Shown: in pieces, positions 5,873 through 55,115 of the stretch
How the letters are laid out: the number at the start of each line of letters is the position of its first letter
How positions within the stretch are numbered: the stretch's first letter is position 1
NCBI GenBank assembly: GCA_037951105.1
Contig: JBAMJV010003766.1
Coordinates: forward strand, 62,001 to 126,000
DNA: 64,000 bases
Source: Echinarachnius parma
Taxonomy: Eukaryota; Echinodermata; Echinoidea; Clypeasteroida; Echinarachniidae
Reading direction: 5' to 3'
The notes under the pieces: model-generated
Told to the model about the DNA's origin: nothing
Seen by the model: only the letters and a program-made list of their open reading frames with translations
The model's database searches: none
Translations under genes and position numbers: made by a program

Positions 5873-6133
5873 TTAGACGGTTGATGTTTTTGTATCACCC
5901 TGGTGACGTCCAGCGGAAGATGCGGTGCCTGTGGGCTTACTTCTAGAAGTCGATGATTGCGATTCGATGCGTTCCCGCCACAGCTTCCTGACTCTTGGAT
6001 TCATCCCGAAGGACCAGAAGATGAGGACACCCTGTGCGGAGGAGGCGATGCTGAAGATGTAGTACATGACAGGTGATCTTACAGCAGCGGCTATGTATCC
6101 CACAGACCAGCTGAACCCCATCAGACTTGATAT
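5873..6133 (-). CDS. Gene A last exon: TM6-TM7 and cytoplasmic tail
   Basis: Terminal exon of a family-B-like 7TM receptor. The minus-strand acceptor (..CTCTCCAG) opens in phase 0 on ISSLMGFSW, the start of TM6, and continues to TM7 (MYYIFSIASSAQGVLIFWSF). A Ser/Thr-rich tail of about 40 residues ends at a stop at 5873. It is 261 nt and collinear with the last exon of gene B, which opens with the same residues. The G-S/T-W motif in TM6 and FW in TM7 are usual in secretin/adhesion/methuselah-type receptors. The tail carries several Ser/Thr that could be phosphorylated (inference). Confidence 0.85.
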   Translation of the reverse strand: MSSLMGFSWSVGYIAAAVRSPVMYYIFSIASSAQGVLIFWSFGMNPRVRKLWRERIESQSSTSRSKPTGTASSAGRHQGDTKTSTV

Positions 6134-6453
6134 CTGGAGAGACATAAACACAAGAATTTCATATGCAAAAAGTACATCCGTCCACATATTATCTTTATAT
6201 TTAAATTTTAAATATTTACATTTGAAATGGCGGGGAAATCATGGACAATAAGAATCATTGATAATCAAATTTGATGAAATATAATTAGATGCGTCTACCG
6301 ATTGTAATTTATATCATTAAAACATGTTAGTGTCACAACCTCATAACACCAGAACGAACTGTTATCCCTTTTAAATAACTGTTTCACTTTTCAAAGCTTT
6401 TTTCATGTTTTAGTATCAATGAAGAGATCGTTCTATCGAATATTTAACTCTAC
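6134..6453 (-). other. Gene A final intron
   Basis: Intron of 320 bp. The donor GTAGAG follows ...LLIYVK and the acceptor lies before ISSLMG. Nothing else is recognised in it. Confidence 0.7.
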
Positions 6454-7937
6454 CTTGACATAGATGAGTAGTTCCTTCTTCCTGTCAGATGTCTTGTCGT
6501 TCTGGAGGATTCTCGAATCATTCTTTGAAGCTCTCACTCCGCGGATAGTCAGCGCAAAGAAGACTGCATTCAGCATCAGACTGATGCCTAGAGGCACCAG
6601 GAACACGATGATATTCGATGTAAAGGGGTTTATCCAGCAGTGTCTTCCACCATATACCAGTGGAAGAGACAGATCCTTTCCCCAAATGAAGACAAACACA
6701 CAACAGGCAACCATCAGGAGTGGAAGCAGCCAACCCCAGATGCAGTATCGCAAGAACCTCTTCCTGATATCAGACTTTCCCTGCTGCGGACGAATGTTTG
6801 TTGAAGAAAAGCTGCGGAAGAGAGTCCAGGCCAGGACCGTCATCCAGGAAAATGCCGCAAGAAAGAAGAAGTGAGCCAGAATCGCGACTGCCTGACATGC
6901 TACGGGCCAGGGTGGGAGGTACGTTGCAGGGTATTCCAGGAGTAACTGGGCTATCATCAGTGCAACGATGAAGTTGATGATGGTAATCCCTTGAAGATTT
7001 TGCAGCGACTTAAGGACCAAATAGGTGACCAGAGTAGCAAGAAGGCATAGAGTGGAAACTCCGAACAATGCGTGGCTTGTTATTGTCTGAGCCCTGGAAA
7101 ATTGGCTATAAAAATACCAACCTTCTATATATTTAGACGACCAACAAATAACAGCATTGCCGTTGGGTAACAAAATAAAGTCATCTGGTTGTACTTTGAT
7201 ATTGTTGAACACAATAATTGTTACATTGTTCTCAAGTTCTAGATCGAAGACATGTATCTCCACATGAGGGCAGTCCATGATGTTGTTGGGTACACCACAT
7301 AACTCGAATTCTCTGCGTATGGAGGCATTACTATCAAGAGTGTATAAGGTGGTGTTCGTCCATATGATTGGGCTGATGTAGGTGTTGTTAAAGTAAACGT
7401 AATGTGACCCGTTCGTCTCAACAGCTAGGAAAAGAGTTGGCTCACCGTAATACCATATTCCAGAGCAGTCAGAAGAATTGGTTCCTGATACAGGACAGGT
7501 CTGGATAAGGCCAATTTCAGTTTCGGAACAGACTGAAGTGTTGAATATCTTCGTGAAATTTGTAATTGTCCCTTCGATTTCTGTCCGAGTCGGAAGTTCA
7601 ATGTTCAAGACTTCAATATATTCATACGAAGCAAAAGTCACGTTGGTTGCAGGATCAAGTTCAGTCAGTTGGACTATAGTTCTAGTAAGATAACCGAATC
7701 CCTCAAAGCAATTGTGTCGAAGTCTGTCAGGGAACGAGCTGTTGACGGAGAAGGAAGTTTCGATGAAGTCACATGGAGGCCAAGCGGTATCTTCAGGCAG
7801 GCATTGTGCGTTGATGAAGACAAAACCCTGAGGACACCGAATTTGAATTGAAAGGGCAGGGTCTAAGTCTGGAATCAAGTAGCTTTCAGGTGGTATGAAC
7901 GCGTCCGGTATTGCAAGCGGTGAACTACCAGAAAAAC
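6454..7937 (-). CDS. Gene A receptor exon: Cys-rich ectodomain and TM1-TM5
   Basis: Open frame of 494 codons without a stop. The first half is an extracellular region with many N-glycosylation sequons (NFT, NTS, NSS, NGS, NNT, NTT, NVT) and paired Cys. The second half holds five hydrophobic segments. Family-B hallmarks are Cys before TM3 (VACQAV) and CW in the second extracellular loop (GGRHCWINP). No GPS/GAIN autoproteolysis motif is seen. The phase-1 acceptor TTATACAG at 7938-7939 fits the phase-1 donors of the SRCR exons. The frame also extends upstream to an ATG at 7962, so a separate short product is the alternative. Compared with gene B, the somatomedin B, stalk and first ectodomain parts are absent. 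The donor after LLIYVK matches gene B. Confidence 0.8.
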
Positions 7938-11252: not shown

Positions 11253-11882
<630 letters not shown>

Positions 11883-12221
11883 CCAGGAGTAGAGCAGAGT
11901 TATTGGAGCACACTGCTCCGGCGTCTTCACTATGCAAACAGTTGTGCTGCAAGTATCCGTAATGGTCGCACTCCCTGATGTCAGCCTCTGACCCGTTACA
12001 GATAACTTCGTCCAGAAAGATAGGTCCTGTTCCTTCGCCGAAGAAGGCCTGTCCTGGTGCCGAACTGGCCCCAATATGTCCCAGCATAACACAGACCACC
12101 GAGGCATCACGTACGTCCCAGTTGTCATCACAAATAGTGGACCAAGAACCATTGTAGAAGACCTCTACTCTGCCTTCGAACGAGTCACTGCCTCCGACAA
12201 GTCGCACTTGAGAGACGTCAC
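11883..12221 (-). CDS. Gene A SRCR domain exon
   Basis: The acceptor ATTCCTAG opens in phase 1 on DVSQVRLVGG and the exon encodes one complete SRCR domain to GAVCSNNS. It has six Cys (TIC, VVC, VIC, REC, HNC, AVC), the group A-like pattern, plus the conserved VRLVGG, CDDNWD and MLG motifs. SRCR domains are extracellular ligand-binding modules in innate immune and adhesion receptors. I place the 3' end at 11883 because CTGG|GTGAGTACC is a strong donor in phase 1, which keeps frame to the receptor exon. The ancestral exon ran to 11579. The domain differs from the gene B copies at only about a dozen residues. Confidence 0.75.
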
Positions 12222-12314
12222 CTAGGAATATCAAGAAGGCAACAAGAAACCTTAATGTTTATTTTATGCAAATATCTTTGCATAATGTCGGCTAGATTGC
12301 AATAATAATCTTAC
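12222..12314 (-). other. Gene A first intron
   Basis: Intron of 93 bp between the signal-peptide exon (donor GTAAGA) and the SRCR exon. The matching gene B intron is over 3 kb because of inserted elements. Confidence 0.7.
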
Positions 12315-12384
12315 CTTGTGCATTTCCTAATGTGCAAATCCATCCAGAAATAAGGAAACATACAATAAAATCCGCCTTGATCAT
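12315..12384 (-). CDS. Gene A first coding exon: signal peptide
   Basis: ATG followed by a hydrophobic stretch (MIKADFIVCFLISGWICTLG) and small residues NAQ suited to signal peptidase cleavage. It ends in phase 1 at a GTAAGA donor, which fits the phase-1 SRCR exon 93 bp downstream. This supports a secreted or type I membrane N-terminus. The 5' UTR is not resolved. Confidence 0.75.
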
Positions 12385-16631: not shown

Positions 16632-16652
16632 TTTATATACAGCAGTTTTACG

Positions 16653-18042: not shown

Positions 18043-18130
18043 GACTGATGATAGACGTAAGCGGCGATGGGGCTATGAGGGTTTGGGGGTTGCAGTTATA
18101 GTAGTATGACAGTGACTACAACTGCCATTA

Positions 18131-18570: not shown

Positions 18571-19076
18571 TATTGTAGTTGTAGTCCCTAATAAGACGCG
18601 TGCTGCCACCTTGCGCACGTTGCGTAATGTATATACTGGCACTATGGTATACTGGTTGGCATGGCTCGGGTGCGCGCGACGTAGCCTAATAATAGGCTGT
18701 TTTCGCAAACGCGACGGAAGCATTCTACAACGCTAATCTCAGCGGGGGGTCGCACTCAGTGCAAACATTTCCGCGTAGCGTCCAAATCTACAACGGTAGT
18801 TGGCCGAATTAGCGTCGGGTGTACAGCGAGTACCGAGCGGCGTGGTAAGCCCTTACTTCAATGGGTCAGCCAGAGGTCAGTGGGGTCAGCCAATCAGCGC
18901 GCTTGGTCACTCGAGCAAGGAGACGTTCCGCGTATTCTTCACTGCGAAACTGCAAATAGATCACGACGGTAGCCAGAGTATGGAGACGGTCACAGCTAAT
19001 TTAAATCCCGCGTATTCAGTACTCCGTCGCATTGCGAAAAGACGCTACTAGTTCAAAGTGGTGACCCACAGTGTAA
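18571..19076. other. GC-richer spacer, no gene seen
   Basis: No conserved domain in the short frames and no clear repeat boundary. Confidence 0.35.
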
Positions 19077-27673: not shown

Positions 27674-27758
27674 ATGGAACGCCTTATGCTGATTCTGTTA
27701 CTCTACTCTTCTGTTTTCATCAAGAAAGTTGCAACGTCAGACAATGAAGACAACGAAG
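27674..27758 (+). CDS. Gene B first coding exon: signal peptide
   Basis: ATG, then a hydrophobic core (MERLMLILLLYSSVF) and a short acidic stretch (SDNEDNE). It ends in phase 1 at a GTATGT donor. The phase matches the next SRCR exon (31092), and the gene A first exon has the same role and phase, which supports this start. The residues are not similar to the gene A signal peptide. A false exon is possible because the next exon is 3.3 kb away. Confidence 0.6.
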
Positions 27759-28108
27759 GTATGTAAATTTAACAGCTTTCTTTTCTTCGAATTAATCCCA
27801 ACTCCATAAACCAAATAAACATTGGACTCTTTGGATTTTGTCAAAGGGAATAAGCAAATAAATAAGCGACATTCTATAATTCAGAACAACAACACACTTA
27901 TTTAACACATCATATATATCGATATATAATACATGGTTGTTATGTTACATAATACAAAATATAAATTAGAATTGTGAAATATCATTAAATAATTCAATTA
28001 ATTGATATGTCATATATTCTTTTGAATAGTTTATGATTTACCAAAGTAATTTTTTTTTCAAACCGTAGTCACACGGTTTATATTTTGTTACCAAATTTGT
28101 TACTAAAT
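27759..28108 (+). other. Gene B intron 1, first part
   Basis: AT-rich sequence with nothing recognised. Confidence 0.5.
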
Positions 28109-29226
28109 CAGGGGTGTCGATCCTGGGGGGTAGGGGGGGGCGGTCGCCCCCCCCCCCCCCCCCCCAATGAAAATATTGGAGGGGCGAACATATCATTTTG
28201 CCCCCCCCCCCCAATAATTCCGAAAATGAGGAAGAAAAAAATCGATTGATATAATGCCAAAGAGGGGAAAGACACATTTATCAATAATTAATCTTCAAAA
28301 TAGCCGTTTTTTAGTTTGAAAAGGACTGTAAATCTCTTTTTTGCCGCGCGCTTCGCGCGCATACAGTTTCTCATATTGCAAGTTTCATTTGGGTTGCGGG
28401 AACTCACCTTTTGAAATGTGTTGGGCAGCGAAATTTCTCAAACGCACACCTCAAACGAAGTTTATTAAACCCTCATCTAATAGATAGCACACCGTCACAG
28501 AAAATAAAATAATCTCAGTACATATACGCTGAACACAAATCAAATTGGAATATCATGTCCCCCCACATTTGAAAAAGGAGCAGATTGTCCCCCTCCCTTT
28601 GTCATTATGTATGTTTGGTTCCATACCTATATACTTCATATTACGTGAAATGTCTGTCTTAGGTGTGCACCAAATCGCACAATTTCACGCCCAAAAATAC
28701 AAAAGCTCCCTACTGTGGGAGGGGGACACCCCCTCCCACACCTCCCCCGCTCGGTCGCTTCGCTTCCTCGCAATGTCTCCCCTACACTTTTGAGAAATTG
28801 TTGACGCCCTTGCTTAGTTTCATGGGAGCCAAATGCCCTAGACTATATATCGATGGCTCGATCTATAGTATACATGAGCACGTTGATCCATCTCATGCAA
28901 GGCTCAGTCTTTTCCTCGCTATGCCCTTTAAAAATACGTTATGAGTAGGCTCACTAATTTATACAATTTTAACACCCATGCTAGGAGCAAATGTCTGAAA
29001 TCTAAAAGCTTCCGGGGGCTCCGCCCCCCTGGACCCCATTATTGTCCCCAAATGTGGGTGCCCCCCAAAGTCAGGTCTTCGAGCCATCAAGACACTTTCA
29101 ATGAGCGCATAATAAAACTTCCAGGCATGCCAATGTGGGGCTTTTAGCTCTGGTCACTCTGGAAAAAATTTCAAATTTCGCCCCCCCCCCCCCCCCCCCA
29201 ATCTCAAAAACGGATCGACACCCCTG
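28109..29226. mobile_element. hAT-like non-autonomous transposon in gene B intron 1
   Basis: 1118 bp. Starts CAGGGGTGTCGATCC and ends with its exact 15-bp complement. The flanks TACTAAAT and TGCTAACT agree at 6 of 8 positions, consistent with an aged 8-bp target duplication. The interior from about 28270 to 28960 is the reverse complement of much of 20190-21110, including the CGCGCGAAGCGCGCGGC palindrome. No transposase. Confidence 0.7.
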
Positions 29227-29304
29227 TGCTAACTTATAATTATACGTGAAAAGTAGTATTACGTGATTCAAACAAATTAAAAGTATCTATACAATAAAAC
29301 AGTG

Positions 29305-29640
29305 TTCGTACATTGTCATGATTAATGTTGCAGTGTACATGTAGATTATTAGAAATGTGTAAAATATATGTTAAGTATGAAGCATTGAAATAGATCCATA
29401 GTATACTGTATATGCAACTCTGCAATGATAGTCTCTTTCAGCACCCTATCCACATACTATATACTAATCGATTATTACATCAGCTATCATGACGGTTCGT
29501 ATATGTTGTCATGATTTATTTGCAGTACACATGTATCATTAGAACTGTGTAAAATATATGTTGAGTATAAAGTTTGGAACTGGATCCACATTATAATTAT
29601 ACAGTGTGTTATAATGGTCTCTTCCAACACATTACAGCAG
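29305..29640. repeat. Diverged tandem duplication in gene B intron 1
   Basis: Two units (about 29305-29450 and 29493-29640) share TTGTCATGATT, GTGTAAAATATATGTT, GGATCCA and ATGGTCTCTT-like blocks in the same order. Confidence 0.6.
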
Positions 29641-30224
29641 CTGCTAACATAGTATATATTTGTTTTTTCCAAAATACAATTAGTGTCGAGTTACAGCGAC
29701 CAAGTTCATTCATTTCGTTGCAAACTTGAAATCTACCTGACATAATGCGTTGTGCACTGATGCAGAAGTAATCAGTTTAAATATAATGCTAGAAATACTC
29801 TTATTTCACAAACGGTAAACAAATGGTAAAAGGTAATCATGTTAAAATACTTTATAATAAGAAAAATATGGAATAACACGAGGTAAGTTTGCCTGCAGTG
29901 TACCTATGCGGAACTACATGTTATGACTCTATAATGGAAATTACAACAATTCGCTACATAGAATATGTCAACCAGAAATACATGTTTATCATGAAATTAT
30001 ACAATTATGAAATACGTATATAGTTATGAAATTATGATCTACGTGTAGAATGGAATAGATGGAATATGTCAAGTAGAATAACATGTGGAATTATGACATT
30101 ATGAAATACAGTCATGTAGAATGGAACATGTCAAAAAGAATACAAACAATCATCAGTAATGAAGGATAATGATTATGTTCAGATACATTATGTGTCTCAG
30201 TTTGCAAAAGGCAAAATCAGCCTT

Positions 30225-30478
30225 TGTCTTCACCCAACGTCAACGTGGCACCCAATGCACTAACCCTGCTATATCCCGTCGTCATAGCAAGGACTTAGTG
30301 GGCTCCGTGGTCATAGGATAATAATGGTTGGTTAGTTATCTGGGATTTACTGATGAGCTCAATCAATTGTATTTATGTCTGGGTCATCAATTATCGTCAC
30401 CATCCTAGAGACGCACCCTTGGTGTGAACCCGCGGGTGATTAGTGCGTGGAGCAGTGCTCTGACCACTTGACCAAATA
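30225..30478 (-). mobile_element. tRNA-derived SINE (copy 1)
   Basis: The minus strand begins with a tRNA-like head: TTTGGTCAAGTGGTCAGAGC (A-box region), then GGGTTCACACC (B-box-like). A non-tRNA body follows. Duplicated at 34492-34935. Confidence 0.55.
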
Positions 30479-31091
30479 AACTTTTAACAAAAATGAAGAA
30501 ACAATGACAACCAGAAGGCATTTATAGGTCAAGTTGTTAATTAACAAATCTTTTTTGCTCGTTACATTGATGCAATTAATTTGTGCAATGTGTTTTTAAT
30601 GTGATCTGGTAACTATGTTGGCATGTGCAAACAATGGCAAACTCCTTACTCTTACTCTTTACACTGAATTTGTACACAGTTATAATTACACATGTATCCA
30701 GTAGAAAATTATAAATCTGAACACTTCAATCATACATATCTTGATAACAAAAGATACATTATTTTTTAGCAAACCGAAAGCTTTTCCATATGGCTATAAC
30801 ATGTCTATTGGTAATACGAATGTAACGCGGTGTGTGAGAACCGCTAGAGTTCGAAGTAAGTGTTGTGGTTCTCGACAATGTTACTATGTTTGCCTCGTCT
30901 GTATATTAGGTTGTAAACTTGTAACAGTGCAGTTCATGTGGTTCATGTGTTTTTACACACCCTCATTCATGCCTAGTACCCATATTGCACCTGGGCGGGG
31001 AGCAGCAATGTAGATAAAGTGCCTTGCATTAACACTAGTTATGTACATTAAATAAACATTAAAGTTTCTTGTTGCCTTCTTGTTATTCTAG

Positions 31092-31730
31092 GACCCTCTC
31101 AGGTGAGACTTGTCGGAGGCAGTGACTCGTTCGAAGGCAGAGTAGAGGTCTTCCATATGAGTTCTTGGTCCACTATTTGTGATGACAACTGGGACGTACG
31201 TGATGCCTCGGTAATCTGTGGAATGCTGGGACATCTCGGGGCGAGTTCAGCGCCAGGACAGGCCTTCTTCGGCGAAGGAACAGGACCTATCTTGCTGGAC
31301 GAAGTCCTCTGTAACGGGTCAGAGACTGACATCCGGGAGTGCGACCATACCGGATACTTGCAGCACGACTGTTTGCATAGTGAAGACGCCGGAGCAGTGT
31401 GCTCCAATAAGTCTATTCGACTCCTTGGTGGGCACCGTCCTGATGAAGGTACTGTAGAGGTCCTCCACAACAACAACTGGTTCTCTGTTTGTGATGACGA
31501 ATGGGATGATCTGGATGCTACGGTTGTGTGCAGGATGTTAGGTTACAATGGGTCGAGTTACGCAGTGACAGATGCTCATTACGGCGAGGCATATGGCGAC
31601 ATTTTACTTGACAATGTACGATGCAGCGGGAACGAGGATGACATACTAGACTGTCCACATGAGGGTCTTCGAAATCACAACTGCCGTCACGACGAAGATG
31701 CTGGGGTCGTTTGCTCTTACGAAACCGATG
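31092..31730 (+). CDS. Gene B exon 2: SRCR1 and SRCR2
   Basis: 639 nt, phase 1 to phase 1, so it can be added or skipped without changing frame. SRCR1 (VRLVGGSDSFEG to AVCS) and SRCR2 (IRLLGGHRPDEG to VVCS) each have six Cys in the group A-like pattern, with CDDNWD or CDDEWD motifs and MLG. The acceptor TTATTCTAG and donor GTAAGG are clear. Extracellular ligand-binding modules; the ligand is unknown. Nearly identical to exon 3. SRCR1 here reads SETDIRECDHTG where exon 3 has SEADIKECDHYG. Confidence 0.9.
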
Positions 31731-31864
31731 GTAAGGGCAACTGTATATTATTATACTGTTTTCGGACACACTTTACGGGTTGTAATGCTGTGACCTACAA
31801 CATGATTGTATCTAGCACACATTCTCTTAGAATGAATACCATAATCATTGTTAGCTGTAGATAT

Positions 31865-32778
31865 ACAGAGTGTATCAAAAAAAAGGTAATCGAAGTTCAA
31901 AGGCCAATAATTTCAAAATGATACATTCTCGTATCAATCAGGCGTGGATGTAAGGAGTAGTTATGCAGCTTTAATTTGACACATTTCCTGAATCAGCAAT
32001 GTCACACATCGCTGAGTTCTCTGTGATTGAAAGTGACACATGCAGAACCCACTTTTTGCAAGTTTGGGCTAATGAATGCAAGCTTGAAAGTAAAATAATG
32101 GTGCCACACTTGAATGAAAACATCAATTTAAACCGTTTTTGTTGGGTTTGCGAGTTACTGAATCGTTAAGCTGAATACATCACTGATATCATACATGATT
32201 TAGTACATTTTAATTGATCATGAATATGCGCTGGCCTGCCATCCACCAGAATTCAATTCTGATGTTAACATCAGAGGCAAAAAAAAATTGGCAGCTTGGA
32301 TTAGCAACTTTGAGGTAGGTCAAGTGATCGGGCCATTTTTCCTCAAAGGAATTAACATTAACAGGGGACATGTACCTTCAGATGATACCTCAGTTGGAGG
32401 AACACATTAGGCGACAGGGTCGAGGAGTATTTGGACAGATTTAGGGCAGGGTTAGGGTTAGGGTTAGCCCATCGCTGTCAGAGATGGACTAGCCGAACTA
32501 AAAGGGCGTTGCGATCAAAAGTTAAGTGGAATGGCCACAAAGGTCCTCTGATTTAATTTTTGTTTTACTTCTTCCTTTCGGGAAATTTGAAGAACAAGGT
32601 GTGTACATCTTCTCGTGACCTGGACGATGTGCAGGGCCGCAATCGACACGAAGTGGATGTATTAGCCCAAAAATAAAAACAACATTTAAGTGTGACACCA
32701 CTCATTTCAGGAATCCATTTATAAGCCAAAACTTGCAAAAATTGGGTTTCGCACCTGTCATCTTCATCAACAAGAACT
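31865..32778 (+). mobile_element. Mariner-type element with dead transposase
   Basis: The left edge follows TA and reads CAGAGTGTATCAAAAAAAA, like a transposon terminus. Frame-shifted plus-strand pieces give IGPFFLKGIN, GDMYLQMIPQLEEHIR, VEWPQRSSDL and DLDDVQ in the order expected for an IS630/Tc1/mariner-type transposase catalytic and C-terminal region. Several frameshifts and stops. A (TTAGGG)-like triplet repeat lies at 32450-32467. The right end is lost at the duplication boundary. Confidence 0.5.
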
Positions 32779-33438
32779 CAACAATTCGCTGCATGGAATA
32801 TGTCAACCAGAAATGCATGTTTATTATGAAATTATAAAATTATGAAATACGTATATAATTATGAAATTATGATTTGCGTGTAGAATGGAATAGATGGAAT
32901 ATGTCAAGTAGAATAACATGTGGAATTATGAAATTATGAAACACTTAAAGTAGTATGACATTATGAAATACAGTCATGTAGAATGAAAAACACGGAACAT
33001 GTCAACTTATGGAGCAGTCACACGATGCTTGCGACGACCTGCAACAAGACAATAGAACTTATGAAGGGCCGATCATGTTCGAAATAACTAGACGTTACAT
33101 CAGAATGCAAATATCGCAATAAATTCGGTATTATTCCCAATTATAGCCATAAATAGGTTGTATGTATTACATTTAGGCTAAAGTAAACCTAACATGTTAT
33201 TTACCGTGCTTCATAAGCATCATAAGCCTGGTTTTGGGTTGTCGATCGAACAATAGCACGACTGGTCACGAGGAACGCATGCGCCGTGTGTTCTCTTGCG
33301 ACGGCAGGTTACCCGTCGCAAGGTTTTTGAACATCAAAAAGTCGGTTCAAAATCCGTTGCGATCAAAACAATAGAAGAGAGAGAGAAAGAGCATGCGGTT
33401 ATTGCGGTGATTGCGGTTATTGCAGTGGCTTCATCTCA

Positions 33439-33630
33439 CCCTATTGACCTATTGAAATTGCATCCATGGCAAATATTCATGGTTTGGTAGACAATACTTA
33501 ATCCTGAATACTTCAGGCAAGTCTCGTCGCATGCGGCATTGCGGTGACCTATTGAAATCGTATCCATGGCAACGATGCATGGTTTGGTAAACAATGATTT
33601 ATCCTGAATACTCCAGGCAAGCCTGCTTTT
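33439..33630. repeat. Direct repeat inside the Harbinger-like element
   Basis: Two ~80-bp units, each starting TGACCTATTGAAAT and ending CAGGCAAG, separated by about 30 bp. Confidence 0.7.
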
Positions 33631-34059
33631 CATCAAAAGTTATTTATTCTCATTACACACCTACACACCCTCATCATTGAAAGGGAGGTATTTAACCGAC
33701 AGGTTTGTATTGTCATGATTGGGATCGGCATCCACATGACAGCGAAGGGGGGGGGGGGGGGGTCTCGGCTCTTGCGCGAGATTCTCCTTCATGTCCCACA
33801 GTTGTTATTTTTGTTGTTTTTCTAACTTGTTTACTGCGGTAATTTATATTTGGACCATTTTGGGTCTTTGTATGAGCTAAAAGCCAAAAGCTTGCACCCC
33901 TACCCCCGTCCTATATGTTTATATTTTGCAACATTTTTCTTTGTTATGGCTCCATACTAAGCATACTCAGGTTAATTTCATATAAGCTTGGTGCACCAAT
34001 ATGGTTGCCCACCGCTAGTATGCTCCCAGGGGAGTAGAGGATGTGTACAAGGTAATTGT

Positions 34060-34200
34060 TAAATGCGCTTAGAGGCTATTAGGCGCGATATAAATACGAA
34101 CTACTAATATTAATAATTATTATTAAATACTATTGTTATTATTATCATTATTACTATTATAATTATTATAATTATTATTAGTAGTAGTAGTAGTAGTATC
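34060..34200 (+). repeat. SINE 3' tail and (TTA)n
   Basis: GCGCTTAGAGGCTATTAGGC, then GCGATATAAATACG, then TTA/TAT repeats. It resembles the complement of the tail of the SINE at 49250-49620. Confidence 0.5.
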
Positions 34201-34491
34201 ATTATTCCATAATTTGTGCATCATATACACCATATCAATATAAGAGCAGAGAGGTATTAACGCTCATCCTTGAAATGCGTGAGTGTTTATATTGTATAGC
34301 TGCAGTGAGTTTGTACACCGCGGTAATTTATTACAGACTTTGACACTTTCCGCCTTTCATACGCGCACGTGACCAATCGCAAGCTGTTGCAGGTCGTCGC
34401 AAGTCCCGTCTGACTGCTCCATTAGTAATTAAGGAAAATAATTATGTTCAGATATATTATGTGTCGCAGTTTGCAAAAGGCAAAATCAGCC

Positions 34492-34935
34492 TAGTGTCTT
34501 CACCCAACGTGGCACCCAATGCACTAACCCTGCTATATCCCGTCGTCATAGCAAGGACTTAGTGGGCTCCGTGGTCATAGGATACTAATGGTTGGTTAGT
34601 AATCTGGGATTTACAGACGAGCTCAATCAGGAGACCGCTTCTGTAATGTATGCAAATAATATGCGTATGACATAAGACTCTCCGTTGGCAAGCTTAACAA
34701 TAGTAACTAGGTCCGGCAAGCTAAGTTTGCCGGAGATTGCCGGACATAGTTACTATTTTTAAGCTTGCCAGCGGGGAGTCTGACGTCATACGCATAATAT
34801 TGGCATACATTACAGAAGCGGTATATTGTATTTATGTCTGGGTCATCATTTATCGTCACCATCCTAGAGACGCACCCTTGGTGTGAACCCGTGGTGATTA
34901 GTGCTTGGAGCAGTGCTCTGACCACTTGACCAAAT
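34492..34935 (-). mobile_element. tRNA-derived SINE (copy 2), split by hairpin
   Basis: Same element as 30225-30478, carried by the duplication and interrupted by the insertion at about 34630-34824. Confidence 0.55.
34630..34824. mobile_element. 195-bp hairpin MITE specific to copy 2
   Basis: Arms ACCGCTTCTGTAATGTATGC / GCATACATTACAGAAGCGGT, with an inner GGCAAGCTTAA..TAGTAACTA and its complement. It is missing from the equivalent place in copy 1 (about 30374), so it inserted after the duplication. Confidence 0.8.
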
Positions 34936-35551
34936 AAACTTTAAACAAAATGAAGAAACAATGACAACCAGAAGGCATTTATAGGTCAAGTTGTTAATTA
35001 ACAAATCTTTCTTGCTCGTTACATTGATGCAATTAATTTGTGCAATGTGTTTTTAATGTGATCTGGTAACTATGTTGGCATGTGCAAACAATGGCAAACT
35101 CCTTACTCTTACTCTTTACACTGAATTTGTACACAGTTATAATTACACATGTATCCAGTAGAAAATTATCAATCTGAACACTTCAATCATACATATCTTG
35201 GTAACAAAAGATACATTATTTTTTAGCAAACCGAAAGCTTTAGTTCCATATGGCTATAACATGTCTATTGGTAATACGAATGTAACGCGGTGTGTGAGAA
35301 CCGCTAGAGTTCGAAGTAAGTGTTGTGGTTCTTGACAATGTTACTATGTTTGCCTCGTCTGTATATTAGGTTGTAAACTTGTAACAGTGCAGTTCATGTG
35401 GTTCATGTGTTTTTACACACCCTCATTCATGCCTAGTACCCATATTGCACCTGGGCGGGGAGCAGCAATGTAGATAAAGTGCCTTGCATTAACACTAGTT
35501 ATGTACATTAAATAAACATTAAAGTTTCTTGTTGCCTTCTTGTTATTCTAG

Positions 35552-36190
35552 GACCCTCTCAGGTGAGACTTGTCGGAGGCAGTGACTCGTTCGAAGGCAG
35601 AGTAGAGGTCTTCCATATGAGTTCTTGGTCCACTATTTGTGATGACAACTGGGACGTACGTGATGCCTCGGTAATCTGTGGAATGCTGGGACATCTCGGG
35701 GCGAGTTCAGCGCCAGGACAGGCCTTCTTCGGCGAAGGAACAGGACCTATCTTGTTGGACGAAGTCCTCTGTAACGGGTCAGAGGCTGACATCAAGGAGT
35801 GCGACCATTACGGATACTTGCAGCACGACTGTTTGCATAGTGAAGACGCCGGAGCAGTGTGCTCCAATAAGTCTATTCGACTCCTTGGTGGGCACCGTCC
35901 TGATGAAGGTACTGTAGAGGTCCTCCACAACAACAACTGGTTCTCTGTTTGTGATGACGAATGGGATGATCTGGATGCTACGGTTGTGTGCAGGATGTTA
36001 GGTTACAATGGGTCGAGTTACGCAGTGACAGATGCTCATTACGGCGAGGCATATGGCGACATTTTACTTGACAATGTACGATGCAGCGGGAACGAGGATG
36101 GCATACTAGACTGTCCACATGAGGGTCTTCGAAATCACAACTGCCGTCACGACGAAGATGCTGGGGTCGTTTGCTCTTACGAAACCGATG
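35552..36190 (+). CDS. Gene B exon 3: SRCR3 and SRCR4
   Basis: 639 nt, phase 1 to phase 1, encoding two six-Cys SRCR domains that differ from exon 2 at only a handful of residues (EADIKECDHYG; DGILD for DDILD). The acceptor TTATTCTAG and GTAAGG donor are unchanged. Including both exons gives four SRCR domains. Because the exons are interchangeable in phase, isoforms with two or four are possible (inference). The exon 3 donor leads in phase 1 to the somatomedin B exon. Confidence 0.9.
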
Positions 36191-36566
36191 GTAAGGGCAA
36201 CTGCATATTATTATACTGTTTTCGGACACACTTTAAGGGTTAAACTGATGTCACCTACAATATGATTGTATCTAGCACATATTCTCTTAGAAAGAATACC
36301 ATAATCATTGTTATCTGTAGATATATAATGAATATTATTAAAGGCTACAGGAACAACATTATTATCTCGATCAGATACGTGGAATATGTGATGTTTTCTA
36401 CACCTTTCCACAAAGCATAGCAAAGAAAATTACGGCTTTGATAACAAATTGTCATATTTTGGGTAAGATACTGCACATGTTTAGCAACATTTTAATTCCT
36501 AATCAACTTTGATTACCCACAGTAAATATTCTGCCAAACTTTCTTTATCCATTTATCAACATGCAG
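36191..36566 (+). other. Gene B intron 3
   Basis: 376 bp from GTAAGG to ..TCAACATGCAG. Its homology to the gene A intron (11253-11578, reversed) shows that the two SRCR cassettes share non-coding flanks. Confidence 0.7.
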
Positions 36567-39556
36567 TTCCCCAGATCACTTTGCCTAGCGGTCCTCATAT
36601 ATACCTAACTTGCCCCGAGTCTTGTGCTGCTGGAGTTCACCTCAACTGCTACTGTGACGCCATCTGCCTACACCTCGGTGACTGCTGCCGGGACTTCGAT
36701 GCCCCCCGAGACCTCCCAGATTGCACATCATCACGGGGCACAGACTACAGCACGGGTACATACCAAGATGGCACTGAAGGTGGAGATCCAAACGCCTCAA
36801 CAGGTGCTGTCCCAAGTGATACAACATTTGCTACCCCAGGTGGTACAACAGGTGCCACCCCAAGGAGCAATACAGGTGCTACCCCAGGTAGTAATACAGG
36901 TGCTAACGCATGTGTTACAACAGGTGCTACCCAAGGTGGTACAACCGGTGCTACCCCATATGGGAATTCTGGTGCTACCCCAGGTGATAATACAGGTGCT
37001 ACCCCAGGTGGTTCAACTGGTGCTACCCCATGTGTTAAAACAGGTGCTACCCCATATGGGAATTCAGGTGCTAACACAGGTGATAATACAGGTGCTACCC
37101 CAGGTGGTACAACAGGTGCTACCCCAGGTGGTACAACATGTGCTACCCCAGGGGTTAATACAGGTGCTACCCCAGGTGCTGATACAAGTGCTACCCCAGG
37201 TGCTGATACAAGTGCTACCCCAGGCGTTAATACAGGTGCTACCCCAGGTGTTACAATAGGTGCTATCCAATGTGGTTCAACAGGTGCTAATACAGGTGCT
37301 ACCCAAGGTGGTTCAACAGGTGCTACCCCATGTGATAATACAGATGCTACCCAAGGTACTGATACAAGTGCTACTCCAGGTGCTACCCCAGGTGGTAATA
37401 CAGGTGCTTCTATAGGTGGTACAACAGGTGCTACCCCAGGTGATAATACAGGTGCTACCCAAGGTGCTGATACAAGTGCTACTCCAGGTGCTACCCCAGG
37501 TGGTAATACAGGTGATTCTATAGGTGGTACAACAGGTGGGATCCAAAATGATATCCCAGGGCTGGAGTACTGGTCGTGCATCAGGCTTCCTACGGGCGAA
37601 GGTGGTGAAGTGCAATGGATCTTGGCGGTCGGGAAGTGTCCCCCGGACTACACCAATCCCTCGATTCGCGATAAGTGTGAGAGGCTATTCATTATCGGTG
37701 TCCTGACGGATGGCTTTGGTGTTTACTTCTTAAACAAGTTTTGTGCAGAATGCCATGGTTTGTCGGATCATGATCAAACCATGCTATACACGTACACGGA
37801 GTGGCATACATCCCCGGTAAATATATCAGGACAAGTCTTAGGGCGATATTACTATCGCAGTGCGCAGCTTAATGACTCGATACACCCACCTCGACGCTGT
37901 GCTAGTAACCTCTTCAATCCTGTAATTAAGTCTTGTAGAAGCAACACCTTTGCAAATGAGTCAACCATAGCATTATGCCAATCATTCTCCGCGTTGATCC
38001 ACGTTGATGGAACCCCCTACAAAAACAAATACTGCGCAGCTTGTAATGACGCGATTGACCTCTCTGTTCTCGACTTATCCCCGGTATCCGAATGCCCACC
38101 ATTACTTGACGCCGATTTCCCGGTCATTGCTGATAGAGAATACGAGACTATCGGCGTTGCTTTCGTAGATATAACTTTCCGGAGGGAAAGGTGCACGGTA
38201 GGCAGGGTGCTCCACAATGGCAAATGCCGTCCGGAAGACTCTAGATGGCCATTATGTGAACACATCTACACCTCGTACACTGTTACTCGTCAAATGGGTT
38301 TTGATGACTGCTTCAGAGGAGTTGGTCAATATGAAAATCACGTTGATTCAGTTTCCAGTTTGGTCACTTCGAGCAACAGTACTGATATGTATTCTTGGGA
38401 TTCGTACGACGTTACGGACTACGACCTCCCACCGAGGGATGTTCTGGAATCAACAATAATCAATTCAACTTGGGTTTTTACATCACCTCTTTGTTCTGAA
38501 ATAGAAATCTCTCTGCAGCAATCATGCCTTGTATCTGGGCAACCCGATTCTGGGAACTGCACGGAGTCCTGGTTCGCTGGTTCACCAGAGAACTTTCACC
38601 CACTACTAGTCAACGGATCAATAATGATATACCACAACACCACTCGCATTATTCCCGCTCAGTGGAAAAATGTAACTACATACATCTATGATGAGAAAAC
38701 GCAAGATTTGGTTGTAAAAAGACAGTTACGATTATGTGGTCGGGGAAAGAAAGTGTTCGGCTGCGCTGCTAAATTAGAAAACAACTTCCAGCTGATGGAC
38801 GAAAGAAACACAACGTATCTAATCTTAGACGATGGGCTCAAGATCCCACCAGAAAAATACGGGCTATTTCCGAATGGAAGTGCACTCATCTGTTTCATAT
38901 CGGGATACACTTTTAATTCTAGATCCCAAATTATCGTGAGCCATATCGCCTTTGGCTTCTCAATTATGTGTCTTCTGGCTACCCTGGTGACGTACACCGT
39001 CCACAAGCCACTGCGAAACCTCCAGGGACTCGTCATCATGAACTTCATCATCGCCCTCCTGATGGCTCAGGTTCTTCTCGAGTACCCAGCTACGTACGTG
39101 TTGCCCTGGCCGCACGTGTGCGAGGCGGTAGGCGTCCTAGGACACTTCTTCTTCCTTGCCGCATTCTGCTGGATGACCACCCTCGCCTGGAACCTCTGCC
39201 AGAGTTTCTCGGTGTCATACATCAAAACCAGGACAGCATCTGAAACCACACGAAGCATTTTACGCTACTCCGCCTTTGGGTGGATCCTTCCCGCTGTTTT
39301 CACCGGATCCTGTCTGGTGGTCCACCTCTGGGGGCAGAAGATACTTCCACTAAGATATGGTGGAAGTCGATGTTGGGTTTCTCCTTACAGGACCAACATT
39401 ATCGTGTTCATTGTACCACTGGCTCTCAGCCTCCTGTTGAATACTGCTTTCTTCATTCAAACTGTTCGAAAAATCAGGGCGTCCCGCAACAAATCCGCTT
39501 TGGCGTTAGCCCCGGACAAAAAGGAAAATAAGCAAGATCTTCTTATCTATATCAAG
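36567..39556 (+). CDS. Gene B exon 4: somatomedin B, Thr/Gly stalk, ectodomain, TM1-TM5
   Basis: 2990 nt. The acceptor before TTCCCCAG opens in phase 1. First, at about 36606-36722, an eight-Cys somatomedin B domain (CPESC, NCYCDAIC, GDCCRDF). Next, about 36800-37545, some 31 copies of an 8-residue GATPGxxT repeat, rich in Thr and likely O-glycosylated. Then a Cys-rich ectodomain (YWSCIRLP onward) with many NXS/T sites. Five TM segments follow, from IIVSHIAFGF (about 38930) to NIIVFIVPLALSLLLN (about 39450), with the TM3 Cys (HVCEAV) and ECL2 CW (SRCWVSP). No GPS motif. It ends at LLIYIK with GTAAGG in phase 0. Closest by eye to methuselah-like/adhesion family-B receptors. G-protein coupling is expected; the ligand is unknown. 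Confidence 0.88.
36805..37545 (+). repeat. Coding minisatellite, 24-bp unit
   Basis: Consensus GGTGCTACCCCAGGTRRTAA plus TACA, about 31 units. The unit is a multiple of three, so copy changes keep the frame. Other frames and the antisense are also open and should not be read as genes. Some units carry Cys (TPCV, NACV, TTCA) or lack 8 bp pairs. Confidence 0.95.
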
Positions 39557-40300
39557 GTAAGGCTTTCACACGTTTTTACTATAACTGTAATAGAAGCTTC
39601 ATCGATCGGTAAAGGGGAACCAAATGCTAGCCGTTTCGCTTACTGTTACTGATACTAGTTGTACCCGCGGAAATCCGCGGTTTTTTGTGAGAGAGAGGCG
39701 ATGATGACATAACGATACTTTAAATCTTTACTATTCCCAGAGTCATAATTTAAATAGTATAAGACAAAATAAACACGGGCGACTCAATCCCGTCCCACAA
39801 CCCGTCGTTGGACGGGGCCCCGACGCATTAGGGTCCCGTCAAACGATATCTGGCCAATGTGATAGACATATGCACACTATCACGGTGGTGTGGTAGCTCA
39901 TTTTTCAATCTAGTTGGGTGAACAATTAATTTGCAGAGGTACTGCACTATGGGATCATTTTTTACAATAGTCTTTTAAAACGGATTTGACAGAATCTGTC
40001 TTTCATTTCGTGTTTCTGTCCGTAATTCTAGCATTCATTTCTGTAAATGTGTATGTGTATACTATTGGAAGTGATTTTAGTGACTTGTACATTCCACAAA
40101 AAATTAAGAGAACAGTCGTTTACTTTATTAAATATGTTTTATAACTCTTTAAAACGTCACGAAAAGCAGCAGGCTGAATTGTCGTATGGACGCTGTGCAG
40201 ATATTGGGCCCCCTACGTCGGCGGTGAAATCTAAGTGCTGTTTGGTGCTTCGGCTAGAATGCCTACGCGCATTCTGTGACACTGGCTTGTAGCTTTATGG
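39557..40300 (+). other. Gene B final intron, first part
   Basis: Starts at GTAAGG. The TTGTACCCGCGGAAATCCGC motif at about 39659 and the GGACAGACAGACAGAC motif near 41738 look like the ends of a further dispersed element, unresolved. Confidence 0.4.
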
Positions 40301-40780
40301 CGGTCCTACTAATCACCGCGAACACCGTGAATCACTACGAAGCACTACGAAATCACTACTAAGCACTACTAAGCACTACGAAGAGCAAAAAGATAGCATT
40401 TGGAGCGCATGTAGAAGTAGATGAGCAAAAATGCAAAGTGATGTTCACCAACTCCTTGCACTTGTACACTGTTTCGACGATCAATTGGATAATTCAACAT
40501 CTGAACACTTCAATCGTAAATATCATTTTAACGAAAGGGAAAGTCTGGCAGCTACCATAGTCTACCTCTACGTGCGCGCATTAAACGTAGTTTTTAGTAC
40601 AGGGCGCTCTTCGCAGTGCAATCTTCGTCTTCGTAGTGCCTCGTAGTACTGCGAAGACATGCTCTTCGCGGTGCTTCGTAAGGGTATCGTAGTGCTTCGT
40701 AGTGTGCTTAGCAGTGCTTCGCAGTGCTTCGCAGTGCATCGCAGTGCCTAGTACTGATCCTTGGCGATTAGTAGGACCCG
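40301..40780. mobile_element. MITE with 8-bp TSD and inverted CACTACGAAG arrays
   Basis: 480 bp. Termini CGGTCCTACTAATCACC and the complement of CGGGTCCTACTAATCGCC. Direct 8-bp flanks CTTTATGG at 40293-40300 and 40781-40788. Just inside each end lies an array of CACTACGAAG-type words, in opposite orientations (40330-40385 and 40625-40750). Non-coding. Confidence 0.75.
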
Positions 40781-42080
40781 CTTTATGGTATATAAAAACC
40801 AATTTAAAAGTGGTTAAGAATCATTTTAAAACTTGGTTTATACAAAGAAAACAATATTTCTCGACATCTGATACGCATGAAATCCAACAAATATAAGCAA
40901 GTATTTTAAATAAATGTATTAAACATCACGTCGAATACAATCCAGAATTCATACACGAAATATAGGATTATGGGACCGAACGGCGCTTGGAATTGGTGCA
41001 TCATTCCCGGCCCGACGCCGACGGAGGCGGTCTACAGACTCTAATACACTCGTGAGGCTTGGTGTACACGGTACATGTGACTGGGTATAGGCAGAATCGG
41101 GACAGAAACACTCCCGTCAGTCAGTCATTTCCTTCCTTATTCCAAAAAAAAAAATTATACTGTTGTACTCACCAGATGTGATTGATTTTCTCACCTAACT
41201 TTGCAGATCGTTCAGGATTCCCCGGTCAAAATATCGCGTCATGTTGGCCCTAGATATCCCAGTTTTTAAAATGGTAATGTTCGCACATCCGTCTATTGTA
41301 CTGTACACATCCATCCCGTATCACTTTACATACACAACATACGATCTTGTTTTGGTCGGAAGCCAACAATTCGCAAGCAAATTACGATAGTCTTAATTCA
41401 GGCGCACACAGCGGCACACGTGTTATTTCCGATTTGACAGGCATACGATAATGTGTGTAAGTAATTTACAACGTATCGATTCCAGGCTGAACAAAGACTA
41501 CATAATGAAAGGTCATTTCAGCAACACACTTTTCACGGTACTTCCGTCGCAAGCATGTGCGATGATCAGCGCTCGACGCGACTGCATGGCAAATGAACGT
41601 GGAATATTGGCCGATTCATAACTGACCACTGGTCAAACTGACCCCGACCTGACCCAGACCACAAACCTCTATGGGTCATCACCAATCACTACCCAAAGTT
41701 TGATGTTGGTGCCTCAATGCACTACGAAATGCATAGATGGACAGACAGACAGACGTGATCGGCTACTTTAGTATAGTAGAAGTCATATCTTGGGAATCAC
41801 AATATAATAGAAATCATCATTGTTTTTAAACCACTATCAACTGATTTGACTGACCAAAGAAGGCTGCTATGTTTTCCAAATGCAACATATGAAACGTCAT
41901 CTGACCTTGCATTGGCAAAGGTGTGTTGCATAACCACTGCAACTGCCGTTAATGTTTAATAACGTTCCATCTTTCTAAGTTGATGTTTATTTTGTTTCGT
42001 TGATCACTGGATATGTGCTTAAATGTCGTTATCTATCAAGTCATGATAATGTTGTTGTTTTTGTTACTATAATATATCAG
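40781..42080 (+). other. Gene B final intron, second part
   Basis: No exon or RNA gene recognised. Ends at the acceptor ..TATAATATATCAG. Confidence 0.5.
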
Positions 42081-42332
42081 ATCTCTAGCCTGATGGGGTT
42101 CAGCTGGGTCGTAGGCTTCGTTGCAGCAGGTGTCCAGTCACCCGCCATGTTCTACATCTTCAGCATCATCTCCTCCTTACAGGGGGTTCTCATCTTCTGG
42201 TCCTTCGCTACCAACCAGAGGGTCAGGGGAATGTGGCGCGATCTTTTGGTGCCCCGAAGAAACTCAAAGGCAACTCAAAAGACGAGATCTACCGGCTTTT
42301 CAGGGGCTTCAGATAACACGTCTTCTGTCTGA
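42081..42332 (+). CDS. Gene B last exon: TM6-TM7 and tail
   Basis: 252 nt. Phase-0 acceptor, then ISSLMGFSWVVGFVAAGV (TM6) and MFYIFSIISSLQGVLIFWSF (TM7). A basic, Ser/Thr-rich tail of about 40 residues ends SGASDNTSSV-stop. The C-terminal four residues, TSSV, resemble a class I PDZ-binding end (S/T-X-V), as does TSTV in gene A; this is a motif match only. It completes the seven-helix domain. Confidence 0.88.
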   Translation: MSSLMGFSWVVGFVAAGVQSPAMFYIFSIISSLQGVLIFWSFATNQRVRGMWRDLLVPRRNSKATQKTRSTGFSGASDNTSSV

Positions 42333-43035: not shown

Positions 43036-43257
43036 TAATTAAAGTCCTGCAACCTTGGAGTTGCCAACTTTATGTTCCTTCTTAACCATCCATTAGCAAC
43101 TGGAGAGTGCATCGAGAACTGTGGCGTGATATTTCCGCTATCAAGATCGGAAGTGAATAAACTGCATCGAACTAGACTAACAGAACGCGATTTGCTGCCA
43201 GTTCTGGGAACTCTTCAAACTATAGGCGTAGGAGGCGGGGGGCTGGAGATTGCAGCC

Positions 43258-43290
43258 CCTCCCCCCCCCCCCCCCCCCCCCCCCCCCCCA
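43258..43290. repeat. Poly-C tract
   Basis: About 30 C within 33 bp. Confidence 0.9.
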
Positions 43291-43311
43291 CTGGAGTTTT
43301 TAAATCGCCTA

Positions 43312-43560
43312 TATTCGGGCAAAATGCAACTGAAATTCTGGCAATCATGTCATATTCGGGCAAAATTATGTCATATTCGGATAAAATCATGTCAGTATTT
43401 TGGCAAAATCAAGTTATATTCGGGCAAATTCATGTCATATTCAGACAAAATAATGTCATATTCGGACAAAATCATATAAATTTCGGGCAAAAACATATAA
43501 TATTCGGGCCAAACCATGGTACATTCGGGCAGTGCCATGTTATTTTCGGGCAGAACCGTC
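43312..43560. repeat. Degenerate minisatellite, TATTCGGGCAAAAT unit
   Basis: About ten units of 20-27 bp, of the form TCATATTCGGGCAAAATCA, decaying toward the right. Open frames here are repeat translations. Confidence 0.85.
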
Positions 43561-44181
43561 TCAATAATTGTGACCTTGTTTCGATAACGCTCGATTAATA
43601 ACAAAAAAAGTGACAGAAACAATCGTGTCCCTGCGAAAAGGAGCGAGGTGAACATGTTAAACCCTATCATTACTTGTTCAGATATATATCGTCTATTATT
43701 ACACATACAGGCTAGTTTTCCGATTCAATAAATCATGTATTTTTTTTTCCGTCTCGGGTTTGTCAGTCATAGCGTTCATTATTGTTATGATATTACCATC
43801 GTCACGTGTATTATGTAGCTCTACAAATGTGTATCGCGAGTGCAATGTCAGACGATATTACTACTCCTCCATAGACATACATGTTATCAGATGATATTTC
43901 TACGTTGAGCTGAATAATAAATATCATATCCAGCGCGGAAGTGCGAAATTCATACGCGCGTTTATTAATGACGCAAGAATGGCTTCGCGCGTATCTAATT
44001 GTGACGTATGAATACGTGTACGCACCTCTGCTACAGTCCGCGCAAATGGCCCTTCATGGGTTGAAAATGTATAATCAGTAATTTGAGATTCAATTCATTG
44101 GTTCTCTTCACTGAACAAGACTGAGTAATATGAATGTTTTTGTTTTTAAATGTTTTGCTCTGGATAGTATGTATAATAATA
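43561..44181. other. No gene seen
   Basis: AT-rich sequence with scattered CGCG words near 43935-44000. Nothing recognised. Confidence 0.4.
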
Positions 44182-51222: not shown

Positions 51223-51800
51223 CCGATTAAATATATAACTTTTCAACCAAGATAATGCAATTCCCCTTATCCCATAATTGTGTAATTTGTGAAATGAAAT
51301 ATTATGATTAATAGTATCAAAGGCCTTGCTCAGGTCCATAAATATAGCAATAACATGTTCTTTATTGGATAATGAATCTATAATGTTATCTAACAATTGA
51401 GTAATTGCGAAATCAGTTGATTTTTTTTTCTAAATCCAAACTGAGATAAGTTAAGTATATTATTTTTTAATAAAAATGAATCTAATCTAGTATAAATTAT
51501 CTTTTCTAAAATTTTAGAAATTACAGGGAGTAGCGATATTGGTCGATAATAAGTTATTTGTGTTCGATCATCTTTCTTATGGACAGGGATCACTTTCGCG
51601 ATTGTTAACGAATCAGGACAAGTTCCATTTATAAATGACAAATTAAATATATATTCTAAAGGGGATAAAATATAATTAATTATTTTTTTCAAACATTTTA
51701 TACTAATTCCATCGTATCCAAAAGATGTTTTTAATTGAAACGTGTTCACAATCCTTACAATTTCATCTTTATTTGTAGGATTTAAAAACATTGTATTTGG

Positions 51801-55113: not shown

Positions 55114-55115
55114 TA

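Follow-up and report, generated by a model that had tools for sequence, protein, structure and literature searches.

A predicted family-B receptor gene of Echinarachnius parma with four SRCR domains and a somatomedin B domain, and candidate exchange of its SRCR exons with neighbouring genes

A stretch of 64,000 nt from Echinarachnius parma (GCA_037951105.1, contig JBAMJV010003766.1, positions 62,001–126,000, plus strand; hereafter the window) very probably carries a single protein-coding gene, whose predicted product is a family-B (adhesion/methuselah-like) seven-transmembrane (7TM) receptor with four SRCR domains, a somatomedin B (SMB) domain, a stalk and a membrane-proximal Cys-rich region; the SRCR exons of the gene would have been exchanged with neighbours and then duplicated. 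The relatives described below come from a comparison with the 1.2 Gb genome.

Gene model and domains of the predicted receptor

The gene has the order signal peptide (SP), SRCR x4, SMB, Thr/Gly stalk, Cys-rich ectodomain and family-B 7TM. Its joined exons make up 4605 nt, that is 1534 aa and a stop, with GT/AG at the four introns (all eight splice sites) and phases 1, 1, 1 and 0, and thus bear out the five-exon frame of 1534 residues given in a preliminary description of this DNA. The features are as follows.

27674..27758, plus strand: exon 1, signal peptide with its start codon, donor of phase 1 (signal-peptide exon scan)
30366..31865, plus strand: duplicated unit, copy with exon 2 (97.9% to 34825–36325)
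31092..31730, plus strand: exon 2, SRCR1 and SRCR2, symmetric phase 1-1, 639 nt (Pfam, splice check, dN/dS)
34825..36325, plus strand: duplicated unit, copy with exon 3 (97.9% to 30366–31865)
35552..36190, plus strand: exon 3, SRCR3 and SRCR4, near-copy of exon 2, symmetric 1-1
36191..36572, plus strand: intron 3 and the first 4–6 nt of exon 4, shared-flank region
36567..39556, plus strand: exon 4, SMB, stalk, Cys-rich ectodomain and TM1-5 (Pfam, hydropathy)
36611..36724, plus strand: SMB domain, 8 Cys (Pfam, 22.0 bits)
36800..37538, plus strand: Thr/Gly-rich repeat stalk (tandem repeats of 24, 36 and 108 nt)
42081..42332, plus strand: exon 5, TM6-7, cytoplasmic tail and stop (hydropathy)

Exon 1, which has two nested ATGs, is the sole signal-peptide-type first exon found by the scan on the plus strand of positions 12300–36566, and is missed under stricter thresholds (donor score of 5.8 against 6.0). 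It has no homologue among the SP exons of the related clade B (see below) and no convincing one elsewhere in the sequence compared. The gene is carried by a single contig (one match at 100%, the others at 53% or less among the matches listed), so this contig may be locally misassembled.

Pfam recognizes two SRCR stretches in each SRCR exon (E 9e-60 and 3e-59). Among solved SRCR sequences, M130, PIT54 and CD5-like rank at the top and DMBT1 lower. SRCR proteins of solved structure, CD163/M130 among them, are known as single-pass or secreted proteins and are not known to have a 7TM. Each SRCR domain of the gene has 6 Cys, which places them in group A according to the rule as worded in PMC10855680. 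The domains listed in the preliminary description (SRCR x4, eight-Cys SMB, repeat stalk and 7TM) were all recovered, the SMB domain (E 2e-4) slightly below the Pfam cut-off of 23.1 bits. The stalk is encoded by 28.9 copies of a 24-nt tandem repeat, contains 25% Thr and 25% Gly, and is probably O-glycosylated.

The match to Pfam 7tm_2 (E 2e-21) puts the protein among secretin/adhesion (family B) GPCRs, and the nearest solved chain to the 7TM is ADGRG2 (E 4e-29, with a profile of 11 rows). Overlapping hydropathy segments merge to seven: exon 4 holds five of them, and the other two lie wholly or mostly within exon 5, whose first residue is 1452. As in adhesion GPCRs, the N-terminus is long and carries adhesive domains; profile searches for the GAIN domain with GPS expected before TM1 gave no match in the 454-aa ectodomain (E up to 1) or in the exon (E up to 10). 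The Methuselah/Mthl ectodomain (Methuselah_N, PF06652), said in the text of PMC4768249 to be arthropod-only, had no match in the gene either.

Relatives in the genome

Close kin of the SRCR exon (73–100% identity) amount to only five exons among the best 150 of 1814 candidates, the next best match reaching 59% among the matches listed. Two of them belong to the gene itself and one each to C7845, C13832 and a minus-strand neighbour in the window (68k), and all five are followed on the same strand, at a distance of 0.4–8.8 kb, by a 7TM exon of the same family. The C13832 gene reads intact as SP-SRCRx2-7TM (812 aa; 5477–5537, 6724–7362, 16185–17665 and 18405–18662); hydropathy at the same threshold gives segments up to residue 702 only and none in its last exon. 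The minus-strand paralogue has the following parts.

12315..12384, minus strand: signal-peptide exon
11560..12222, minus strand: SRCR x2 exon, frame broken, ends approximate
6453..7937, minus strand: ectodomain and TM1-5 exon, without SMB
5873..6160, minus strand: last exon, TM6-7

This inverted paralogue had been invoked in favour of one gene. Its SRCR does precede its 7TM, but the SRCR exon can be read only with a frame change and holds stops, and the intact C13832 is a better witness. SMB and stalk were looked for in the paralogue and not found.

In the tree, the gene (flagged as a long branch) has clade B (99/96) as its neighbour, and both fall within a clade supported at 99/95. Related SP exons are present on the 5' side of all six clade-B genes examined (C5344 set aside), with a phase-1 donor recognized by scan in four and by eye for 52k. 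An SRCR exon lies between the SP and receptor exons in three of these six, and a search upstream of 27k, 41k and 52k gave none at E 1e-3 in the sequence compared (for 41k, in sequence without about 300 bases near C3765:50000-50295). Frame breaks affect two of the three with an SRCR exon, in the SRCR exon at 68k and in the SP exon at C7845. Phase-1 acceptors picked by eye fit in 27k, C13832, C7845, 68k, the more distant SMB-7TM relative C12641 and the gene itself; clean ones were not evident by eye in 41k and 52k. A search of the 9.4 kb upstream of C12641 gave no SP candidate. The clade-B sequence searched contains no SMB, stalk or N-terminal ectodomain exons. A hydrophobic stretch just ahead of the SRCR exon was considered as a signal peptide and rejected, as it corresponds to the acceptor pyrimidine tract, which is common to the gene, 68k and C7845 and happens to contain an ATG in the last.

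Both the gene and C12641 have a single long exon in which SMB precedes 7tm_2. Eleven further SMB matches are found 1.4–2.3 kb upstream of a same-strand 7TM match, a count taken from 12 SMB rows hand-picked out of 73. This core arrangement, with SMB, ectodomain and TM1-5 together in a single large exon, is common within a receptor family of Echinarachnius parma. No contig is common to the SRCR matches listed (150 of 2036 candidates scored) and the 7tm_2 matches listed (150 of 456), and further SRCR-7TM fusions may exist outside this locus.

History of the SRCR exons and alternative readings

Exons 2 and 3 differ at 7 of 639 nt and the enclosing 1.5-kb unit is 97.9% identical; judging from sequence, SRCR3-4 is a recent copy of SRCR1-2. 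Nonsynonymous changes make up most of these differences (5.5 of 7, dN/dS 1.02), which are too few for judging selection. Between genes, the dN/dS of the SRCR exons is 0.19–0.30 (for exon 2, 0.29 with C13832 and 0.20 with C7845), and purifying selection appears to act on them. Their dS is about 0.3 (0.30–0.33 from C13832 and C7845), whereas the receptor exon has reached saturation in dS, with a dN of 0.48–0.50, in all five pairs computed (52k, for which identities alone were computed, is outside these pairs). The gene also shares flanks with its neighbours, 52 bp ahead of the SRCR exon and patches behind it that end 4–6 nt into exon 4, intron 3 being patchily homologous to the intron that, in both C7845 and the minus-strand neighbour, follows the SRCR exon. 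The low SRCR dS against the saturated receptor dS, together with these shared intron flanks, argues that neighbouring receptors in inverted orientation had an SRCR cassette copied from one to another (or homogenised), which was duplicated later. The acceptor of exon 4 lies within sequence common to the introns of the neighbours, which are followed by no SMB exon, so its use is a prediction. A bolder proposal, which falls just short of an even call, is that the phase 1-1 SRCR-pair exon is a mobile recognition cassette passed among neighbouring GPCR genes and fitting both SMB-type and SMB-less receptors, perhaps in two intron settings (C13832 as against C7845, 68k and the gene).

The case for one gene is far stronger than that for two, given the paralogues, the phases, the single SP-exon candidate and the open frame of exon 4, which has no Met before the SMB domain; on this point the preliminary description is well supported. 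That exons 1–3 would instead encode a secreted SRCR protein next to a separate SMB-7TM receptor is improbable. An ATTAAA does occur at 36337 in intron 3, a retained intron after exon 3 would stop the frame 17 residues on, and in C7845 the SP exon recurs between the SRCR and receptor exons, a second copy from which, although it lacks an ATG at the usual place, a receptor start after the SRCR exon could be obtained. However, such a receptor would need a start that exon 4 does not offer before SMB, no second plus-strand signal-peptide exon was found, the intact C13832 has the SP-SRCR-7TM order, and the five kin exons all precede 7TM exons of the same family. It is equally improbable that the SRCR exons are recent debris from neighbours, unused by the gene: they are young compared with the receptor, they share intron flanks with the neighbours and the SRCR exon of the minus-strand neighbour has itself decayed, but both 639-nt exons are open with intact splice sites, and dN/dS is 0.20–0.30 with relatives at a silent divergence of about 0.3.

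Two other readings bear on how the SRCR exons are used and how they arrived, rather than on the number of genes. They might be optional cassettes, since both are symmetric 1-1 and splicing from exon 1 to exon 4 is possible, giving receptors with 0, 2 or 4 SRCR; in three of six clade-B genes an SP exon precedes the receptor exon with no SRCR match in the intervening sequence compared, so that an SRCR-less form exists in paralogues. This exon skipping is hypothetical and less likely than not, and it agrees with one gene instead of competing with it. The similarity of the SRCR exons could also reflect gene conversion of an old shared exon and not transfer into an SRCR-less receptor, a reading to which we give a sizeable minority share of belief: conversion between inverted neighbours would yield equally low dS. 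Yet the shared block is compact, ending about 52 bp upstream and at the start of exon 4, which fits transfer at least as well, and either direction of copying is compatible with it; moreover, C12641 (SMB of 23.5 bits) has no SRCR match in 9.4 kb upstream.

Possible functioning and comparison with known systems

With one gene as the preferred reading, the following scenario can be proposed. The SRCR pair forms a symmetric (1-1) exon within the phase-1 intron that separates the signal-peptide exon from the receptor exon; this pair would have been exchanged between the gene and its inverted neighbours, then duplicated in the former. Other SRCRs bind polyanionic ligands in a metal-dependent way. 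Provided that the gene is expressed and spliced as predicted, its SRCR array, held out on the stalk, would likewise bind polyanionic microbial or self ligands, depending on metal. Ligand binding or clustering would shift the ectodomain and 7TM and lead to G protein or arrestin signalling and uptake, and signalling would occur without cleavage at a GPS. The link between SRCR recognition and G-protein signalling put forward in the preliminary description is kept in this conditional form. It would give the large SRCR repertoire of echinoderms, whose members are usually regarded as immune receptors that scavenge or are secreted, a connection to G-protein signalling, and the gene offers a concrete receptor for testing direct SRCR-to-G-protein signalling. 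It would also illustrate, at one locus, how exons are shuffled between receptor genes, with probable breakpoints that can still be seen. If the mobile-cassette proposal were true, it would yield scavenger receptors coupled to G proteins in which the evolution of the recognition part is independent of that of the signalling part.

The architecture had been presented as unfamiliar, which is too strong. SRCR with family-B 7TM (7tm_2) has been reported from amphioxus, a sponge and the starfish Acanthaster planci, and SMB from methuselah-like GPCRs (Mth/Mthl); for the full combination (SRCR x4, SMB, stalk and 7TM), no report was found in the portions of the literature compared. Amphioxus Adhesion GPCRs, for which domain shuffling was proposed, carry SRCR, SMB, Kringle and other domains in the N-termini of family-B 7TM receptors like the gene (Nordstrom 2008, PMC2246102). 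The portion of that paper compared does not state that SRCR and SMB occur on the same receptor, and many of its receptors have a GPS, whereas none was found here. The Amphimedon Adhesion GPCRs Aq712029 and Aq715659 similarly bear multiple SRCR repeats on a 7TM receptor, but belong to the sponge lineage, and somatomedin is absent from the main text (Krishnan 2014, PMC4302439). In Acanthaster planci, an echinoderm like Echinarachnius parma, 7tm_2 ranks in the top five of the domains that accompany SRCR in its genes (Table 1 of Peng 2024, PMC10855680); the text compared gives no architecture or stalk, and somatomedin is absent from the main text. Mth/Mthl GPCRs with Somatomedin_B, expanded in sea urchin, share with the gene an SMB on a family-B 7TM without Mth ectodomain, but the text compared mentions no SRCR (de Mendoza 2016, PMC4768249). 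In the same way, NvX and planarian PARF1 receptors have a single SMB and an adhesion-like 7TM but, in the text compared, no SRCR or stalk is described (Zamanian 2011, PMC3261222). A likeness in working is offered by placozoan C-type-lectin GPCRs, as described in PMC6321704: their pattern-recognition domain is a CTLD and not SRCR, but it is likewise carried directly on a secretin/adhesion-family GPCR.

Gene model and receptor family

The five exons predicted in the preliminary description were recovered exactly (GT/AG borders in all four introns, phases 1, 1, 1 and 0, 4605 nt, 1534 residues):

27674–27758, plus strand, exon 1, signal peptide
31092–31730, plus strand, exon 2, SRCR pair
35552–36190, plus strand, exon 3, SRCR pair
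36567–39556, plus strand, exon 4, somatomedin B (SMB), Thr/Gly stalk, ectodomain, TM1–5
42081–42332, plus strand, exon 5, TM6–7 or most of them

Pfam finds the four announced SRCR domains, two per SRCR exon with six cysteines in each, and assigns the family-B 7TM to 7tm_2; the repeat stalk is a genuine array (24-nt unit, 28.9 copies). The proposed SMB domain does have its eight cysteines, but its Pfam match lies slightly under the cut-off. Exon 2 and exon 3 belong to two recently duplicated copies of a 1.5-kb unit (97.9% identity between copies).

Among solved structures, the 7TM comes closest to adhesion GPCRs, with ADGRG2 ranking highest. Profile searches retrieved neither GPS nor GAIN (454-aa ectodomain at E up to 1, exon 4 at E up to 10), nor Methuselah_N in exon 4 or the ectodomain. 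In a midpoint-rooted 7TM tree of 30 rows, the gene, flagged as a long branch by the tree program, adjoins a group of receptors, clade B (support 99/96), within a 99/95 clade. A more distant relative on contig C12641 encodes SMB, ectodomain and TM1–5 in one exon, without stalk, and its 9.4 kb of upstream sequence yielded no SRCR match. Among hand-picked rows, at least 11 further loci place an SMB match 1.4–2.3 kb upstream of a same-strand 7TM match. Taken together, these loci indicate that SMB-7TM is a common form in this family, that clade B would have lost the SMB region or let it diverge past detection, and that SRCR would be an addition to the SMB-7TM form.

One gene or two adjacent genes

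The first Met of the exon 4 open frame occurs at 426 residues, well past the SMB domain, and the receptor therefore requires an upstream start. A scan for signal-peptide exons (start codon, hydrophobic signal, phase-1 donor) on the plus strand (12300–36566) returned a single exon, the predicted exon 1, which has two nested ATGs and is absent from the output at stricter thresholds. On the minus strand, the same criteria also returned one exon, the signal peptide of the inverted clade-B paralogue located there. Across the 1.2-Gb assembly (14,790 contigs; the window spans bases 62001–126000 of C3765, a contig of 134,771 bp), the best 150 of 1814 candidates include five exons closely related to the SRCR pair (73–100%), the remaining matches listed reaching at most 59%. 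Each of the five lies 0.4–8.8 kb upstream of a same-family 7TM exon on the same strand. On contig C13832, four exons with phases 1, 1 and 0 form an intact gene that joins signal peptide, two SRCRs, proline-rich linker, ectodomain and 7TM in 812 residues. Related signal-peptide exons precede all six clade-B genes examined; in three, an SRCR exon separates them from the receptor exon, and no SRCR match was found there in the other three. This distribution argues that the SRCR pair is an optional symmetric exon inside a phase-1 intron of the receptor gene.

Several features limit or count against this reading of the locus as a single gene rather than two neighbours. Among the assembly matches listed, the gene is present on one contig. 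The SRCR exon of the minus-strand neighbour contains stops and needs a frame change, and on contig C7845 the signal-peptide exon before the SRCR exon is frame-broken; the clean SRCR-7TM genes are therefore only that of C13832, whose last exon has no segment over the hydropathy threshold applied, and the one described here. C7845 carries two clade-B-type signal-peptide copies (15097–15208 and 18005–18088) flanking its SRCR exon, the second, after that exon, being without ATG at the usual place.

History of the SRCR cassette

Where the receptor exon was aligned, six clade-B genes share 79–91% identity with one another and 44–46% with the window gene; a partial match on C5344 shows 75–81% to the clade-B receptors and 52% to the window gene. 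Between the window gene and clade B, silent changes in the receptor exon are saturated, with dN of 0.48–0.50 (five of six genes computed), whereas comparing the SRCR exons of the window gene with their counterparts in C13832 and C7845 gives a dS of 0.30–0.33 (dN/dS 0.20–0.30). The SRCR exons thus appear to be under constraint and to have split far more recently than the receptor part.

The 52 bp ahead of the SRCR exon are common to the window gene and its neighbours (88% with the minus-strand one). The intron behind it holds patches of 78–93% with the neighbours, one of them out of order, and the last downstream patch crosses the exon 4 acceptor to end 4–6 nt within exon 4. Because no match to C13832 was found in the downstream flank, the same cassette seems to have a second setting in that contig. 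The simplest account would be the transfer, in either direction, of a segment of about 1 kb with the SRCR exon inside it between the inverted neighbours, and a later duplication within the window gene. Homogenisation of an older shared SRCR exon by gene conversion is a possible alternative.

Putative function, precedents and surroundings

SRCR domains bind ligands via acidic metal-binding sites. The solved SRCRs nearest to those of the window gene are M130/CD163, PIT54 and CD5-like, and both of its SRCR types retain CDDxWD and EDAG, which we take to be the acidic (metal-binding) motifs. The SRCR array, held on the extended stalk, would capture a ligand and the 7TM would couple this capture to G protein or arrestin, without GPS cleavage.

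SRCR on family-B 7TM receptors and SMB on 7TM receptors both have precedents: adhesion GPCRs with SRCR in amphioxus (PMC2246102) and sponge (PMC4302439), 7tm_2 within the top five partner domains of SRCR genes in Acanthaster planci (PMC10855680), and SMB on Mth/Mthl receptors (PMC4768249) and on flatworm or cnidarian receptors (PMC3261222). In the open-access main-text passages covered, no description was found of SRCR, SMB and 7TM in one protein or of SRCR exon exchange between GPCRs.

SRCR matches score identically in two contig pairs, C136/C4613 (in reversed order) and C74/C5382, suggesting that the assembly may keep both haplotypes. The single COX1 match reads with the echinoderm code: TGA is required as Trp, and the internal AAA, together with the AGA and ATA codons, occupies positions expected to hold Asn, Ser and Ile, respectively. 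The window also contains the following features, the RVT_1 fragments being marks of retroelements around the receptor cluster:

16044–16664, minus strand, reverse-transcriptase fragment (RVT_1, E 7e-12)
43039–43724, proline run and repeat-like stretch, one frame of which reads SYSDKIMSYSDKI
51390–51863, minus strand, reverse-transcriptase fragment (RVT_1, E 7e-7)
53079–54176, minus strand, rhodopsin-family GPCR in a single open frame of 365 aa (7tm_1, E 1e-33)
55114–55671, inverted repeat with arms of 242 nt, 93% complementary, spaced by 74 nt
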